Origin: Emticicia sp. BO119
Lineage (GTDB): Bacteria > Bacteroidota > Bacteroidia > Cytophagales > Spirosomataceae
Assembly: GCF_013912375.1 (NCBI RefSeq)
Contig: NZ_JACETV010000004.1
Location: forward strand, 124,001-188,000
Length of the DNA stretch: 64,000 nt
Reading direction: 5' to 3'
Position 1 is the first letter of the stretch. Each line of letters starts with the position of its first letter. Both the position numbers and the translations under genes were made by a program. Below the pieces are notes generated by a model. The model was not told the origin of the DNA. It saw only the letters and a list, made by a program, of their open reading frames with translations, and did not search any database. This document shows, in pieces, positions 13,845 through 23,482 of the stretch.

Positions 13845-15707
13845 ATGTTTCCAGAATATGATGTTATAGTAGTAGGGGCAGGCCATGCCGGATGTGAAGC
13901 CGCTTCGGCCGCAGCAACAATGGGTTCAACTACACTATTGATAACAATGAATATGCAAACCATTGCACAGATGTCGTGCAACCCTGCAATGGGTGGTGTA
14001 GCTAAAGGACAAATAGTTCGTGAAATAGATGCATTGGGTGGCCGCTCTGGGATTATAAGTGATAAAACTATGATTCAATTCAGAATGCTCAATCGATCTA
14101 AAGGTCCGGCTATGTGGAGTCCAAGATGCCAGAGTGATAGAATGATGTTTGCACAAGAATGGAGAGATACGTTGGAAAATATCCCGAACCTGGATATTTG
14201 GCAGGACATGGCCGTAGGTATTCTTGTAAATAACAATAGAGTAGTAGGTATAAAAACTTCAATGGGTTTAGAAATTAGAAGTAGATCAGTAGTTCTTACA
14301 AATGGTACATTTTTGAATGGAAAGATTCATATAGGTGAAAAAACCTTTGGGGGTGGCAGAACAGGGGAGAAGGCGGCTCATGGTATAACAGAGCAATTAA
14401 TAGAATTAGGCTTCGAATCCGGGAGAATGAAAACCGGAACACCGCCAAGAGTAGATGGTAGATCGTTAGACTGGTCTGAAATGGAAGAACAAAAAGGAGA
14501 CGAAAATCCTGAAAAATTTTCTTATACAGATACACCTAAACTAACAAAACAAAGAAGTTGCTATGTAACCTATACAAATGAGCAGGTACATCAAACCCTT
14601 AGAAAAGGCTTTGACAGATCTCCTATGTTCAGCGGAAGAATAAAAGGTTTAGGTCCACGATACTGCCCATCTGTTGAAGATAAAATTAATCGCTTTGCTG
14701 ATAAAGACCGTCATCAGATTTTTGTTGAACCTGAAGGCTGGAATACAGTAGAAATGTATATTAATGGATTTTCAACTTCTTTGCCAGAAGATATTCAGTA
14801 TGAAGCACTCCGTTTAATTCCTGGATTTAAAAATGCCAAGATGTTCAGACCAGGATATGCGATAGAATACGATTTTTTTCCACCAACTCAGCTCAAATTA
14901 ACTTTAGAAACACATTTAATTGAAAATCTATTTTTTGCCGGACAGATTAATGGTACAACCGGATATGAAGAAGCGGCATGTCAGGGTTTAGTAGCAGGAA
15001 TCAACGCCCACAATAAAGTAAAGGATAAAGAGGCTTTTATCTTAAAACGTAATGAGGCTTATATTGGAGTATTGATAGATGACCTTGTAAATAAAGGTAC
15101 TGAAGAACCATATAGAATGTTTACCTCCAGAGCGGAGTTTCGTACACTTTTAAGACAGGATAATGCCGATATACGTCTGACTCAAAAAGGATACAATATT
15201 GGCTTAGCATCTGAGATTCGTTTAGATAGAATGATTCAGAAAAGGGAAGAATCTGAAAAGCTGGTAAAAGCATTAAAAGAAATGAAGATATCTCCTGATC
15301 AGGCAAATGGATTTCTGGAATCAATTGAATCAGCTGGTTTGAGAGAAAAGTCTTCCTATTATAGTATTCTTAAAAGGCCTGAAATTGAGATTGAGGATAT
15401 AAAGAATCTGAGCACTGAAATAAAAAACTATTTAGAAAGTTTTGATGATGAGGTAATGGAGCAAGCAGTTATTCATGTTAAATATGAAAGTTATATTGAG
15501 AAAGAATTATTGATGGCTGACAAAATGGCAAAGTTAGAAAACCTGAATATTGTCTCAACAATTGATTATGATAAACTTACATCTATTTCAATAGAAGCGC
15601 GCCAAAAGCTCAAAAAGATTAAACCGCAGACATTGGGACAAGCCTCGCGGATAAGTGGCGTTTCACCAGCAGATATTTCAGTACTGATGGTGCACCTTGG
15701 AAGATAG
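13845..15707 (+). CDS. mnmG: tRNA uridine-5-carboxymethylaminomethyl synthase subunit MnmG (GidA)
   Basis: The FAD-dependent partner of MnmE that installs the cmnm5 group on U34 of certain tRNAs. The 620 residues start with the dinucleotide-binding loop [12 protein letters not shown] (GAGHAG at 11-16). They continue with [67 protein letters not shown], and [20 protein letters not shown], ending in the helical MnmE-binding domain. Length is normal and all motifs are intact. Two parS-like sites occupy the leader. mnmG (gidA) classically marks the replication-origin region, consistent with the oriC-like sequence 2 kb beyond its end. It ends in a hairpin terminator. Confidence 0.98.
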
Positions 15708-17412: not shown

Positions 17413-18253
17413 GTAAACCTACTTTTTTTTATGCTTACAATATAGTCTTAACAATTACCGATTTTCTTATATTACATTTTAGTATCAACTGCTAAAATCA
17501 AACCAATTCAATTGTGTCCGACAACCTGAAATTCTATTAACATTAGAATTTAAAGTTAACAATATTATTTTCTATTCTACACTTTTGAATAAAATTCAGA
17601 AAATCTATCCTCTTTAAATTGACACATCTTAAATAGATATATATATGAGAGGTAAAACTATAATTCTCGCTTTTTAATAGTTTACAAAGCGCATTAAATA
17701 AAATCGTTTAAGCTAATCATTTTTTATTACTCCAACCTTTAAAATCTTATAGCTAATCTTCAAGACCACCTTCTAAAAAACAAATTAGTATATCTATTCT
17801 TCATAAAGGTAAAAGGTCAATTCAAAATAAAAAATATCCAAAAAACTTTGTGGATAAATAAGTGGACAATATATGGAGAATGTGAACTGACAGGTGGAAT
17901 AGGTTGTGTAGAAATTAATAGGTTGCGTGGACAAAACGTTTTGTCTGTGGAATAACCCCGAAACTACACTCTTTTCCTCAATTCACACCAAGTGGATTAA
18001 CGTGGAAACACTATGTGGATAGTACACAAGTCTATCAACACAAACTATTTTTAATGAAATGTAAATAAGTGGTATTAGAATTGATTATCAATAAAATAAG
18101 TGTGGAAGAGTATAATAAAACTGTGGAAAAACAGATTATTTATGTGAATACTTGGAAAGCCATTATCCACAGATTATATTTATTCACATTTCCACAGGGC
18201 TAACAAATAAAAACAATAATAAAATATTAATTAATTTTTATTTTTTTAAAAGC
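17413..18253. other. putative chromosomal replication origin (oriC)
   Basis: The longest gene-free stretch in the window (841 bp), extremely AT-rich. Perfect DnaA boxes TTATCCACA occur at 17849-17857 (minus strand) and 18163-18171 (plus strand). Boxes fitting TTWTNCACA lie at 18122-18130 (minus, TTTTCCACA) and 18180-18188 (plus, TTATTCACA). One-mismatch forms are at 17946-17954, 18014-18022, 18101-18109 and 18188-18196, and weaker GTGGACAA copies at 17862-17869 and 17927-17934. Immediately right of the box cluster, 18199-18252 is almost pure A/T and fits a duplex-unwinding element. mnmG and two parS sites lie 2-4 kb to the left. dnaA is not in the window, and genes on both sides mostly run rightward, so there is no strand switch to help. 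Confidence 0.85.
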
Positions 18254-20053
18254 ATGAAAAGGTATCTGTTACTTGTTTTGATGACAATCATCGGGGTAAG
18301 TCTAAGGGCTCAAGACCTTGAATTGGCAAATGAGTATTTTAAGCAAGGAGAATATGAAAAAGCCAAAGATATTTATGTGAAATTATCGAAAGATAAAAAT
18401 ACTGTCAGATTAGTGCATACTAATTATTTGCAAACACTCTACAAATTAAAAAACTGGGACGAGGCTGAAAAATTTCTAAAACGACAGATAAAGGCTAATG
18501 AAAATACCATTAGTTATAAAGCCGATTACGCGCTGATGTTAGAAATGACAGGGAAAATCGATGAATCACAAAAAGAATTTAATAATGTCATTGAATTAGC
18601 GGCTAAGTCAGATGGAACCCTATACGAAATTCAGGATTTCCTTTACAGGAATAGTAAAACAGAACAGGTGATTCAATTACTGAAGAAAGGCAGAGAGTTT
18701 GCAAAAGACGAAAATAAGTATGCAATTTTCTTTGCCAGAGCATATTTATACAACGGACAAAAAGAGTCAATGATAGACGAAATGATGAAGTATGGATTGA
18801 CAGAAGGAAATACTGATTACGTAAAAGCGACTTTTCAGGATAATCTTAAAACTGACGCCGAAATAGATATGCTCGAAAAGGTGCTTTACAGCAAGGTACA
18901 GAAGTTTCCGAACGAACAATACTATGCTGATATGCTTATCTGGCATTTGATTCAACAGAAAGAGTTTTATAAGGCTTTTGTGCAAACAAGGGCTTTAGAC
19001 AGAAGGTATAAACTGGAAGGACAACGAGTTTTTGAGTTGGCTCAAACAGCTCTGGTAAACAAAGACTTCAAAAACGCTATTCAGATGTATGAATACGTGA
19101 TGAAAGAATATCCACAAGGCCAGTATTATCCCTATGCCAGGCGTAATGCTATCTTCTGCAAGGAAGAAGTTATCAAGACAACTTATCCGGTTGATTTGAC
19201 CTCCATCAGAACCCTCATAAAAGATTATCAGAATCTTTTCACAGACTTAGGCCAGAACCAGAAAACAATGGAAGCTATGCGTAATACCGCACAGCTATAT
19301 GCCTTTTACCTGAATGAAAGAGATACTGCCATTGCTGTGCTTGAAAAAGCCATCAGTATTGCTGGAGGAGATAATAATTTCAGAGATAAATGTAAACTCG
19401 ATTTGGGCGATATCTATATTCTGAAAAATGAGCCGTGGGAGGCAACCTTACTCTATTCGCAAGTCGAAAAATCTCAAAAAGAGGATATGTTAGGGCAGGA
19501 GGCTAAATTGAAAAATGCCAAGTTGCACTATTATAGCGGTGAATTTGATTTATCAAAAGATATTTTGGATATTCTTAAAAAAGCTACTACCCGGGAAATT
19601 GCTAATGATGCTATGCAATTAAGTTTATTGATTCAGGACAATATTGGTCTGGACACTACAGAAGCTGCAATGAAGGAATATGCTTCAATTGATTTACTGC
19701 TTTTTCAAAACAAAAATCAGGAAGCATTAGTGGCTTTAGATAATGCCTTCCAGAAATACAAGAGTCATAGTCTGGCCGATGAAATTCTCTGGTTACGCGC
19801 AAATACGTACGTAAAAATTAATCAATCAAATAAAGCCTTAGACGACCTGGAGCTACTGCGCAAAAATTATAATTATGATATTTTGGCTGATGATGCCTTA
19901 TACCTTGAAGCGAAAATCTATCAGGAGAAATTAGGACAGAAAGACAAGGCTATGGATTTGTACAGGCAAATACTGCAGAACTTTCCTGGAAGTATCTATG
20001 GAGCAGATGCCAGAAAAAGATTCAGAAATCTTAGAGGAGATACAATAAACTAA
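18254..20053 (+). CDS. secreted tetratricopeptide-repeat protein
   Basis: The start is set at the ATG at 18254 (MKRYLLLVLM), which begins a clean signal peptide ending near SLRAQ. A longer reading from 18152 would run through the DnaA boxes. The mature protein of about 580 residues is built of TPR-like helical hairpins: LELANEYFKQGEYEKAKDIY and NYLQTLYKLKNWDEAEKFL near the N-terminus, and ALYLEAKIYQEKLGQKDKAM near the C-terminus. It has no catalytic motif. It is probably a periplasmic or outer-membrane-associated scaffold; the partner is unknown. It is the first gene beyond the putative oriC and ends at a strong terminator. Confidence 0.85.
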   Translation: MKRYLLLVLMTIIGVSLRAQDLELANEYFKQGEYEKAKDIYVKLSKDKNTVRLVHTNYLQTLYKLKNWDEAEKFLKRQIKANENTISYKADYALMLEMTGKIDESQKEFNNVIELAAKSDGTLYEIQDFLYRNSKTEQVIQLLKKGREFAKDENKYAIFFARAYLYNGQKESMIDEMMKYGLTEGNTDYVKATFQDNLKTDAEIDMLEKVLYSKVQKFPNEQYYADMLIWHLIQQKEFYKAFVQTRALDRRYKLEGQRVFELAQTALVNKDFKNAIQMYEYVMKEYPQGQYYPYARRNAIFCKEEVIKTTYPVDLTSIRTLIKDYQNLFTDLGQNQKTMEAMRNTAQLYAFYLNERDTAIAVLEKAISIAGGDNNFRDKCKLDLGDIYILKNEPWEATLLYSQVEKSQKEDMLGQEAKLKNAKLHYYSGEFDLSKDILDILKKATTREIANDAMQLSLLIQDNIGLDTTEAAMKEYASIDLLLFQNKNQEALVALDNAFQKYKSHSLADEILWLRANTYVKINQSNKALDDLELLRKNYNYDILADDALYLEAKIYQEKLGQKDKAMDLYRQILQNFPGSIYGADARKRFRNLRGDTIN

Positions 20054-20199: not shown

Positions 20200-21462
20200 A
20201 TGAAAAGTAGGTTATTCACATTGTCCACAATGTTATGCACATTGTTCTATGTGGCCAACGCTCAAACTGAACAAACAAGAACTTTTGGCTACAACTACTA
20301 CGGTCAGCGTATCAACGAAAAGGCTATCTGTAATATGGTAAGTTTTCGTTCAAAAGAAGTAGCCGAAAAAGCAGTAGATGAGATAGTGCGCAGAAGTGGA
20401 TTAAAAAGAAATTTTTATGTGATGGAGTGCCCTAATACAGACAATTGTTTTGCAGCAATAAACGGACAAACCCGTCTGATAGTATATGATGGTGCATTTA
20501 TGCAGAAAGCCAATAGTATATCTAAAACAGATTGGGGGGCCTTAAGCATACTTGCCCATGAAATAGGTCATCATTTGCAGGGACATACCATTATTGAAGG
20601 TGGTAGCGATCCACAGAAAGAACTGGAGGCTGATGAATTTTCAGGCTTTGTGATGTATCAGATGGGAGCATCTTTAAAAGAAGCACAAGCTGCTATCAGC
20701 AAACTGACCTCTGATTATGATGGCGGGACACATCCACCAAGAACAAGACGTCTGGCTGCTATTGAAAAAGGATACAGAAGTGCACAGGAATTATACCCGA
20801 ATGTGAAGAAAAACGATGGAAGTGTAATTACTTCGATACCTCCGAGACAATCAACAGAGGTCCAGAATCCAACTCAATCGCAAAGAGTTCCACAGAGTGT
20901 GGATAATGTGGATAAAGATGTGAATAACCCAGTTGACCCAATCAGAAGAACTGATGGAAACTTAAGTGGACCATCTGAAGTAGCTAAAATTGATCCAGAT
21001 CATGTGGATAACTCTAATTCAAATGTGCGTAACCCTGCCTGTATCGAGGGAGACTGTGGAAATGGGTTTGGTAAAATGATTAATATATATACACAGGAAA
21101 GATACGAAGGTGAGTGGAGAAATAGCAAACGTGAAGGCAGAGGAGTAGAATATTACGCAGACGGAGAAAAAAAATATGTTGGTAATTTTATTGCCGGCAG
21201 ATATGGTGGAAATGGGACTTATTTCTACAAAAATGGTGATAAATATGTAGGTAAATATAAGAACGGAATGATGAATGACGAACGGGGTTATTTTATATAT
21301 AATAATAATATGCGCCTTGTTGTAAAGGTAGTAAATAATAAGAAAACCGGAAGAGCCCTAAGATTGTACCCGGATGGACGAAAAGAAGAAACGTATTTTG
21401 ATAATGACGTGGAAAGAAAAACTTATAGGGATGCCAACGGGCGGATTATCAACACATTTTAA
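20200..21462 (+). CDS. secreted zinc metalloprotease-like protein fused to MORN repeats
   Basis: 420 residues with a signal peptide ending near residue 22 (VANAQ). The N-terminal half has a zincin core: LAHEIGHHLQGH with His120, Glu121 and His124, and a downstream ELEADEFSGF (Glu near 143) in the position of the third zinc ligand, as in M48-type peptidases. A Pro/Asn-rich linker (about 205-285) follows. The C-terminal 120 residues contain MORN-type repeats (YEGEWRNSKREGRGVEYY, YVGNF..GRYGGNGTYFY, YVGKYKNGMMNDERGYF). The catalytic motif is intact, so an active periplasmic or surface peptidase is likely. MORN units often bind lipid or protein, which could place it at a membrane (inference). Monocistronic, with its own terminator. 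Confidence 0.82.
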   Translation: MKSRLFTLSTMLCTLFYVANAQTEQTRTFGYNYYGQRINEKAICNMVSFRSKEVAEKAVDEIVRRSGLKRNFYVMECPNTDNCFAAINGQTRLIVYDGAFMQKANSISKTDWGALSILAHEIGHHLQGHTIIEGGSDPQKELEADEFSGFVMYQMGASLKEAQAAISKLTSDYDGGTHPPRTRRLAAIEKGYRSAQELYPNVKKNDGSVITSIPPRQSTEVQNPTQSQRVPQSVDNVDKDVNNPVDPIRRTDGNLSGPSEVAKIDPDHVDNSNSNVRNPACIEGDCGNGFGKMINIYTQERYEGEWRNSKREGRGVEYYADGEKKYVGNFIAGRYGGNGTYFYKNGDKYVGKYKNGMMNDERGYFIYNNNMRLVVKVVNNKKTGRALRLYPDGRKEETYFDNDVERKTYRDANGRIINTF

Positions 21463-21472
21463 GCCAAAACCG

Positions 21473-21507
21473 AAAAGCTGAGATGAATCAATCTCAGCTT
21501 TTTTTAT
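21473..21507 (+). terminator. terminator of the zincin-MORN gene
   Basis: A 12-bp stem AAAAGCTGAGAT/ATCTCAGCTTTT with a 6-base loop and a T-run, directly after the stop. Confidence 0.9.
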
Positions 21508-21520
21508 ACGATTTATAATG

Positions 21521-21528
21521 TAGTTTTG
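21521..21528 (+). promoter_or_regulatory. TAnnTTTG element for accD
   Basis: TAGTTTTG at 78 bases before the accD ATG, immediately after the preceding terminator. No convincing -33 element. Confidence 0.45.
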
Positions 21529-21605
21529 TAAAAAAATAAGAAAAAACTTTTAAATCAACCACTAACCTATTTACCTTTGACCCCTCAAAATGATTTTTTT
21601 CTGAT

Positions 21606-22448
21606 ATGTCTTGGTTTAAGCGAACTGTCAAAGGAATTCAGACACCAACCGAAATGAAGCGTGAAGCACCAGATGGGTTATGGTATCAATGTCCGAACTG
21701 TAAAAAAGCAATGCATACGCGTGAGCATAAAAATAATGCTTATACTTGTATTCATTGTAACTATCACGAAAAGATTGGCTCAGAAGCCTATTTCTCCATA
21801 TTATTTGATGAAGGAAAATTTACTGAATTAGATGCAAATCTACGCTCAGGAGACCCACTCCATTTTGTAGATACTAAACCATATCCGGATAGAATACGTT
21901 CTACTGAAAAGAAATCAGGTTTAAAAGATGCTGCCCGATCGGCATATGGAAAAATGTCAGATATTGACATCGTAGTTACCTGTATGGATTTTGGATTTAT
22001 CGGGGGGTCGATGGGTTCGGTAGTGGGCGAAAAAATAGCCAGAGCTATAGAATACGCCTTGAATAATAAAATTCCATTTCTGATGATTTCGCGCTCTGGT
22101 GGTGCCAGAATGATGGAAGCTGGTTTTTCATTGATGCAAATGGCAAAAACCTCTGCCCGATTAGCACAATTAGCCGAAGCAGGAATTCCCTATATATCAT
22201 TACTAACTGACCCAACGACTGGCGGAGTAACAGCTTCTTATGCCATGTTAGGAGATTTTAACATCTCTGAACCCCAGGCATTAATCGGATTTGCAGGGCC
22301 AAGAGTCATTAAAGAAACTATCGGGAAAGAATTGCCAAAAGGTTTTCAGACAGCAGAGTTTATCTTAGAGCATGGCTTTCTTGATTTCATTGTAGATAGA
22401 AAAGATTTAAAAGATAAGCTGGCAAGTTTATTGAAAATGCTTGCTTAG
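21606..22448 (+). CDS. accD: acetyl-CoA carboxylase carboxyltransferase subunit beta
   Basis: AccD with AccA transfers the carboxyl group from carboxybiotin to acetyl-CoA to form malonyl-CoA for fatty-acid synthesis. The 280 residues begin with the zinc ribbon (Cys29, Cys32, Cys48, Cys51). The crotonase-like carboxyltransferase domain follows with [55 protein letters not shown] and the family end [26 protein letters not shown]-like segment. Length is standard. accA and accBC are not adjacent, as often in this phylum. Single gene followed by the radical SAM gene 56 bp later, so the two may be co-transcribed. Confidence 0.97.
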
Positions 22449-22504
22449 TTTTCAGTTTCATTGTTTAGGGTAAATCATACTTATCAATCATTAAAAATGC
22501 AAGT

Positions 22505-23482
22505 ATGAGACTTATCAAGCATCCTGTATTGTGCAATTACTACGTTACGTATCGCTGTAATGCTACATGTAATTTTTGTGATATATGGGAGAAACCTTCA
22601 CCGTATATTACATTTCAGAATTTCAGAGAAAACCTTCATGACCTTAAAAAATTAGGAGTAAAAGTCATTGACTTTACCGGAGGTGAACCCCTACTACACC
22701 GCGAATTGGATGTTTTGCTTGAAGAGGCGAAAAAAGCAAGCATGATAACTACAGTTACTACCAATTGCCTGCTCTACCCTAAATATGCCGAGCGCCTGAA
22801 AGGCAAAATAGATATGCTTCATTTCTCCCTGGATTCTCCGGATGAAGAAGAACATAATGTTTCACGTGGCGTCAAATGTTTTGACAAGGTGATGGAATCG
22901 ATTACTATTGCCAAAGCAATTGGAGAAAGACCGGATGTGTTATTCACAGTTTTTGAACAAAATGTGGATAAGATAGAACGCATATGGAGAGAAATTACAC
23001 AACCGAATGATCTGGTATTAATACTCAATCCAGTGTTCGATTATAATAGTGTACAAACAGGAGGAAGTCTTTCTGAACAGTCGTTAAAGCAACTCCAATG
23101 GTGGGGTAAGCAAAAAAACGTTTATCTGAACGAAGCGTTCATTTCACTAAGAAAAAATGGTGGAAACCATGTGGATAATCCTGTTTGCAAGGCTGCTTCA
23201 ACTACTTTAGTCATATCTCCTGAAAACAAGTTAGTCCTCCCATGTTATCATTTAGGCACAAAGGATTTTGCAATTAATAATAATCTCTACGAACTATATC
23301 AATCAGCTGAGGTACAGGAGATCGTGGCTTTAGAGGGAAGATTGAAGGAATGCGAAGGCTGTGTAATTAATTGCTATATGCAACCCTCTTTTGCTGTGGA
23401 AATCAACAAATACTTCTGGAAAGCATTACCGAGTACACTTAAGTACAATTATATCAAGAGTACGTGGAAGAAGTTAATATGA
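22505..23482 (+). CDS. radical SAM protein with SPASM-like C-terminus
   Basis: 325 residues. The radical SAM cluster motif is CNATCNFC with Cys18, Cys22 and Cys25, preceded by YYVTYRC. The glycine motif DFTGGEPLLHREL and HFSLDSPD follow. The C-terminal part has additional cysteines (VCKA, LPCYHLG, CEGCVINCYMQ), which suggests at least one auxiliary iron-sulfur cluster as in SPASM/Twitch enzymes. The substrate cannot be told: no small precursor peptide gene is seen next to it, and related proteins act on peptides, lipids or hopanoid-like molecules. It follows accD by 56 bp. The family call is secure; function is unknown. Confidence 0.85.
   Translation: MRLIKHPVLCNYYVTYRCNATCNFCDIWEKPSPYITFQNFRENLHDLKKLGVKVIDFTGGEPLLHRELDVLLEEAKKASMITTVTTNCLLYPKYAERLKGKIDMLHFSLDSPDEEEHNVSRGVKCFDKVMESITIAKAIGERPDVLFTVFEQNVDKIERIWREITQPNDLVLILNPVFDYNSVQTGGSLSEQSLKQLQWWGKQKNVYLNEAFISLRKNGGNHVDNPVCKAASTTLVISPENKLVLPCYHLGTKDFAINNNLYELYQSAEVQEIVALEGRLKECEGCVINCYMQPSFAVEINKYFWKALPSTLKYNYIKSTWKKLI

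Follow-up and report, generated by a model that had tools for sequence, protein, structure and literature searches.

The window analysed here is a stretch of 64,000 nucleotides, corresponding to C23:124001-188000 of a 6.57-Mb genome (G000) of an Emticicia, a member of the order Cytophagales, that is assembled in 28 contigs. Its longest gap without an open reading frame of at least 80 amino acids runs from 17413 to 18151, the next longest being 426 bp, which bears out the claim of a first-pass annotation that the longest gene-free region of the window lies here. The gap ends at 18253 when the gene for a TPR-repeat protein that follows is taken from its ATG start. The TTG start at 18152 in the list of open reading frames was rejected as a mechanical choice, as homologues match the ATG form. 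On the other side, a gene encoding a Big_5 domain separates the region from mnmG, and a cluster of DnaA boxes stands immediately before the TPR gene. A perfect DnaA box is defined as TTATCCACA and a loose box as TTWTNCACA. The features of the locus are as follows.

13845..15707, plus strand: mnmG (gidA), from the open reading frame list and homology
17413..18253, no strand: intergenic region with the proposed oriC; longest ORF-free gap; TPR-side part alignable in 10 Emticicia genomes
17815..17835, plus strand: edge element GGTCAAT-N2-WAAATWAAAAAW, a candidate site of unwinding, matched once in the 6.57-Mb genome
17849..17857, minus strand: perfect DnaA box, facing the edge element (pattern scan)
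17861..17869, minus strand: box TTGTCCACT, weak with two mismatches, in tandem with the 17849 box at a 12-bp pitch (pattern scan)
18014..18022, minus strand: one-mismatch DnaA box CTATCCACA (pattern scan)
18080..18092, no strand: palindrome ATTGATTATCAAT, retained with small changes in the 10-genome Emticicia alignment
18122..18130, minus strand: DnaA box TTTTCCACA, fits TTWTNCACA (pattern scan)
18163..18171, plus strand: perfect DnaA box (pattern scan)
18180..18196, plus strand: overlapping boxes TTATTCACA (18180-18188, TTWTNCACA) and ATTTCCACA (one mismatch), adjoining the right-hand A/T block (scan and alignment)
18199..18252, no strand: right-hand A/T block with 5 G/C in 54 bp, proposed earlier as duplex-unwinding element and also the leader of the TPR gene
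18254..20053, plus strand: gene for the TPR-repeat protein beside the proposed origin; homologues align with the ATG form from its first residue

The number of boxes in this region is far above expectation. Between 17820 and 18260 there are two perfect boxes, compared to 0.014 expected, and four boxes of the form TTWTNCACA, compared to 0.19 expected; none of 500 first-order Markov sequences reached either count. The two perfect and two further boxes claimed by the first-pass annotation were recovered at 17849, 18163, 18122 and 18180. The several one-mismatch copies it described agree with our count of 12 sites at no more than one mismatch from TTWTNCACA between 17840 and 18253 (2.5 expected; 0 of 500 Markov sequences). 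A/T-rich stretches lie at both edges of the cluster by composition, and the almost pure A/T composition described for 18199-18252 was confirmed. Across the genus, the 10-genome alignment showed that the composition of this block is retained and its sequence less so. The palindrome at 18080-18092, inside the proposed origin, is conserved across the genus. A scan of the window against Rfam returned nothing at gathering scores.

The concentration of boxes is unique in the genome. There are 63 perfect boxes in the 6.57 Mb, fewer than for a reversed control pattern (89), and seven of these 63 fall within 5.33 kb (C23:141849-147178), compared to 0.05 expected; no other stretch of this length contains more than two. 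Five of the seven lie outside the intergenic region, at 20898-23178 in coding sequence, and had been missed by the earlier annotation. The only other exact tandem of TTWTNCACA boxes at a 12-bp pitch in this genome is found at G000:C12:411237-411257.

The dnaA gene of this genome is on another contig. Replication from an origin at dnaA would be a common arrangement: the Ori-Finder analysis located oriC next to dnaA and close to the skew switch in 342 of 568 chromosomes (PMC2275245, as excerpted). However, the loci of dnaA in three Emticicia genomes (one locus being clipped by the start of its contig) and in G014 are free of loose boxes, and the GC skew of complete relatives contradicts such an origin. 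In G002 (Emticicia sp. 21SJ11W-3, NZ_CP092074.1; complete, one contig of 5,177,490 bp), 80 samples of 20 kb each, covering 1.6 of the 5.18 Mb, gave a cumulative skew with its minimum between the final sample, at 5.11 Mb, and the start of the record, and its maximum at 2.65 Mb. The homologue of our locus maps to 5.1646 Mb; the dnaA gene, at 3.394 Mb, sits on the falling arm. The second complete genome, G133 (57% GC, from another genus of the same family), was sampled 20 times (0.4 of 5.58 Mb). Every sample to 2.61 Mb, where the cumulative curve reached its minimum, had negative skew, and none between 2.90 and 5.24 Mb did, with the caveats that the curve rises less steeply than it falls and that skew turns negative again in the last sample (5.51 Mb). 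In this genome, the TPR gene maps to 2.786 Mb; the best match to DnaA maps to 1.604 Mb, and a second one, weak and partial, to 1.268 Mb. In these two genomes, dnaA is thus 1.2-1.8 Mb from the locus and in the middle of a skew arm, and an origin at dnaA is hardly credible. The skew minimum coincides with the locus within about 15 kb in G002 and within the 290-kb sampling in G133. Cumulative GC skew, which the first-pass annotation had named as a check, therefore favors its proposal: the minimum is at the orthologous locus in two complete relatives and not at dnaA.

At a finer scale, the minimum is displaced from the cluster towards mnmG, by about 12-15 kb in G002 and about 15 kb in the 100 kb covered in G006. 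In the window's own contig, within the 400 kb covered in this fragmented genome, a local minimum lies 17-30 kb from the cluster. GC skew is weak in Emticicia and the genes flanking the region point mostly in one direction; we read the offset as a putative effect of this gene orientation on a weak skew.

The cluster is conserved together with the TPR gene. Among 80 named loci, 79 were usable (L182 lacks upstream DNA), and the 700 bp ahead of the TPR match contained at least three loose boxes in 68 of the 79 and at least two in 74, although the loci, 25 of the 80 from Dyadobacter, are not independent. Upstream of the TPR gene, the density of loose boxes was 7.5 per kb, compared to 0.27 per kb elsewhere, a 28-fold difference over the 79 loci; the reversed control pattern was also 8-fold denser there (0.56 compared to 0.07 per kb), so base composition explains part of the excess. 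In an order-wide set, formed from the best 30 of 98 TPR matches and reduced to 29 by one incomplete locus (the window's own is included), 22 of the 29 had at least three boxes within 1200 bp of the TPR gene, in families f1, f4, f5, f14, f17 and f22. G133 has eight loose boxes in the 490 bp before the gene. The seven loci with fewer than three boxes comprise all four of family f15 and three of the five of f4. Conservation of the boxes, the second check that had been named, was therefore found in close as well as more distant relatives.

Two observations stand beside these counts. In locus L160 (G117, family f22), 22 loose boxes, 19 of them perfect, are packed unusually densely into about 450 bp upstream of the TPR gene. 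The box-poor genomes of f4 (G026, G046, G115) and f15 (G136, G083, G069, G122) have zero to two loose boxes before the gene, and five of the seven have mnmG linked to the TPR gene. In these box-poor genomes, the origin could have relocated or could rely on other boxes.

As the cluster reaches right up to the start codon of the TPR gene and stands before this gene in most relatives examined, it could be a mere DnaA-controlled promoter, with replication starting elsewhere. Such a promoter would have to account for the skew minimum of two complete genomes, which falls at the locus, for the densest perfect-box site of the genome and for up to 22 loose boxes before the gene in one relative, and we regard it as very improbable.

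The linkage to mnmG was studied in 118 genomes, of which 20 without a TPR match and one with a split mnmG match (G025) were left out. In 57 of the remaining 97 genomes, belonging to 13 of 19 families, gene order is kept, with mnmG no more than 16 kb from the TPR gene. The other 40 include 27 with the two genes on different contigs, which carry little information, 11 with the genes far apart and 2 with the genes on opposite strands. In G053 and G130, 8 and 12 boxes precede the TPR gene and mnmG is found on a different contig of the draft; in G077, 16 boxes precede the TPR gene and mnmG lies on the opposite strand past its far end. The mnmG gene is close by but is only one neighbor; it is the TPR gene that the cluster directly precedes. 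In the eight genomes of family f12, order and strand are intact but 37-42 kb separate the two genes, a spacing suggestive of an inserted block. Many contigs of draft assemblies from several genera (L189, L194, L196-L199, L207, L208, L212, L214 and many of L216-L250) end about 3.3-4.2 kb past the TPR gene, where there may be a long repeat, e.g., an rRNA operon.

The edge of the cluster on the mnmG side has a distinctive organization. Read on the minus strand, it consists of TTGTCCACT, 3 bp, TTATCCACA, 27 nt of A/T-rich sequence and ATTGACC. Using a criterion of at most two mismatches in the inner box and at most one in the outer, box pairs at a pitch of 11-12 bp were found on the minus strand in 59 of 79 loci, on the plus strand in 1 of 79 and in 0 of 395 shuffled controls; control pitches of 9-10 and 13-14 bp gave 10 and 3 of 79 loci. 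Among same-strand pairs of boxes with at most one mismatch, the commonest pitch was 12 bp (46 pairs), followed by 20-21 bp (38 and 33). Tandem boxes no more than 3 bp apart, the criterion applied to the basal unwinding system (BUS) of Bacillus subtilis, are present in the window at 17849/17861, with a weak partner.

The edge element itself is more restricted. With five mismatches allowed, 21 of 79 loci have it between -440 and -531, 15 of these with no more than three, and its carriers are Emticicia, Larkinella, Fibrisoma, Spirosoma, Arsenicibacter, Rhodocytophaga and a MAG; in G133 it lies at -448. Matches at other positions were seen in L192 and L201 (three mismatches, at -58) and in six more loci (four to five mismatches). 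As matches with four to five mismatches also arise by chance in the loci, it is the fixed position that carries the argument. ATTGACC follows a box within 40 nt in 13 of the 59 pair-bearing loci, and in part of the loci it is fixed 26-27 nt beyond the box. The element is not recognisable in the loci of G002, Emticicia sp. CRIBPO, Dyadobacter, Runella and Lacihabitans. The idea that it is a general feature of the Cytophagales was rejected, with just 21 of 79 loci carrying it at the fixed position.

Scans for DnaA-trios gave a different picture. A strict, canonical search returned scattered matches with no consistency across the loci. A lenient match looked promising at first but was no better than its shuffle control: NTN runs were as long in shuffled sequences (P 0.19-0.90 in eight chosen loci).

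These observations bear on where the duplex would open. The right-hand A/T block, proposed earlier as the unwinding element, is a possible site: its composition fits and two overlapping boxes at 18180-18196 adjoin and face it. However, the tandem boxes point to the mnmG-side edge, which is conserved in sequence in part of the relatives. Unwinding is therefore more likely to occur at this edge (17,815-17,869) than in the right-hand block.

Beyond the TPR gene, further boxes were found within two coding sequences, an M48/MORN gene (20200-21462) and a radical SAM gene, and most of the genus carries this downstream cluster.

20212..20241, plus strand: TTATTCACA, TTGTCCACA (one mismatch) and TTATGCACA at a pitch of 9 + 12 bp, in signal-peptide codons of the M48/MORN gene
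20898..20927, minus strand: three TTWTNCACA boxes at a pitch of 9 + 12 bp, in linker codons of the M48/MORN gene
21003..21011, minus strand: perfect box in the same M48/MORN linker
22940..22971, both strands: boxes TTATTCACA (plus) and TTATCCACA (minus) within the radical SAM gene
23170..23178, minus strand: perfect box within the radical SAM gene

Synonymous codons were shuffled within each gene in 1000 trials and loose boxes were counted. For the M48/MORN gene, the observed number was reached by no more than 2 of 1000 shuffles in eight of nine genomes with the gene, the exception being G006 (399 of 1000), and for the radical SAM gene the same threshold was passed in four of ten genomes (G000, G008, G001 and G009) and not in the other six; these counts overstate the evidence, as the genes were picked after the boxes had been seen, the genomes are related and the tests are not independent. 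G002 provides another view. A search of its whole genome gave no match to the M48/MORN protein, and the same search finds the protein in G000 and G008. The corresponding gap in G002 (L123) nevertheless retains a short remnant with 32 of 33 bp of the triplet at 20898..20927, compared to about 58% identity in the rest of the alignment. Survival of an array after loss of its gene points to selection on the boxes themselves. A stretch of 25 bp before accD is likewise retained in G002.

These coding boxes most likely represent an origin-proximal DnaA reservoir or an accessory module. That they act outside the initiation complex, as a reservoir for titration or a control site of the datA/DARS kind, is somewhat favored. 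The shuffle excess, inflated as it is by the choice of genes and the kinship of the genomes, and the G002 remnant are consistent with this function. Furthermore, the five perfect boxes downstream all occupy the minus strand, which would be the lagging strand there if the origin is at our locus; the available portion of PMC12371093 describes origin-proximal enrichment of boxes in E. coli, read as titration, and a lagging-strand preference. A bipartite origin, in which the M48/MORN arrays 2-3 kb downstream would be a second module needed for initiation, draws on the same shuffle excess in eight of nine genomes and the same 32 of 33 bp left in G002. It also draws on the 9 + 12 bp pitch common to both triplets, 12 bp being the preferred short pitch in the origins. 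Against such a need, 10 of 45 loci, with two of three Dyadobacter, Rhodocytophaga and Xanthocytophaga among them, are free of loose boxes for 4 kb past the TPR gene or up to the end of the contig; G006 has one loose box in its M48/MORN gene and none in its radical SAM gene; and the stretch before accD means that the array is not the sole conserved block in G002. We therefore consider a required second module rather unlikely.

Collectively, the box cluster, its conservation, the position of the skew minimum in complete relatives and the uniqueness of the site in the genome identify the gene-free stretch as very probably the start site of the chromosome, far from dnaA. We assign a probability of roughly 0.9 to the reading that 17,815-18,252 is the oriC of this Emticicia, with DnaA acting on the boxes, opening proceeding from the tandem pair into the A/T-rich edge, and forks leaving bidirectionally. 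The proposal that this is the functional origin even though dnaA is not nearby thus gained support from the skew minimum in two relatives and from the conserved boxes. For the mechanism, we infer that DnaA binds the cluster and that helicase is loaded there. DnaA, made from a gene on another contig, would bind the boxes and oligomerise from the tandem pair into the adjoining A/T-rich edge; the duplex would then open, helicase would be loaded, and forks would depart in both directions.

Compared to known origins, the Emticicia locus shares several features and differs in others. First, the oriC of E. coli consists of a DnaA-box cluster and an A/T-rich stretch, with mnmG close and dnaA distant, and the Emticicia locus resembles it in all of these respects. 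The E. coli position between gidA and mioC is mentioned in PMC10225481, as excerpted; here, the Big_5 gene lies between mnmG and the origin, the TPR gene takes the place of mioC, and Emticicia has further boxes in downstream coding sequence. Second, as in the BUS described in the available part of PMC8287927, tandem boxes on the same strand with a 3-bp gap face an A/T-rich edge. However, there is no consistent strict trio here, the lenient run is not above shuffles, and part of the loci carry ATTGACC 26-27 nt past the box, unlike the BUS as presented in that text. Third, two box clusters with a gene between them recall the bipartite origins of Helicobacter pylori, B. subtilis and Clostridioides difficile (oriC1/oriC2); the C. 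difficile clusters flank dnaA according to the excerpt of PMC7561715, whereas here the TPR gene is between and the second cluster is in coding sequence. Fourth, an excess of boxes beside oriC with a lagging-strand preference is like the titration enrichment of E. coli, which spans centisomes in the portion of PMC12371093 that we cite, whereas that of Emticicia spans a few kb and lies in specific codons.

Replicative oriC plasmids are known for Cytophaga hutchinsonii. No paper on the Emticicia origin was among the matches listed, and DoriC predictions may well include relatives; the only match listed with both Emticicia and oriC, PMC11728151, concerns the microbiota of Daphnia. An oriC away from dnaA is ordinary; a strand-fixed pair with an edge element, together with boxes borne by codons, is less so. 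We tentatively suggest, as an idea that may well prove wrong, that a distinct type of origin exists in part of the Cytophagales. In such origins, the cluster before the TPR gene would be opened at its mnmG-side edge by the strand-fixed tandem pair together with an element specific to the lineage (a box, then 26-27 nt, then ATTGACC, which is GGTCAAT-N2-WAAATWAAAAAW on the other strand) in place of DnaA-trios, and Emticicia would also use selected arrays of boxes in coding sequence, so that a gene could be lost while its boxes stay.

These results place the origin in a group where dnaA gives no guidance. They also provide markers for finding origins in draft genomes, namely the start of the TPR gene, the strand-fixed box pair and, in some genera, the edge element. 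Furthermore, arrays within genes that exceed synonymous expectation, one of them kept after loss of its gene, would make selection on codons for holding the initiator protein testable.
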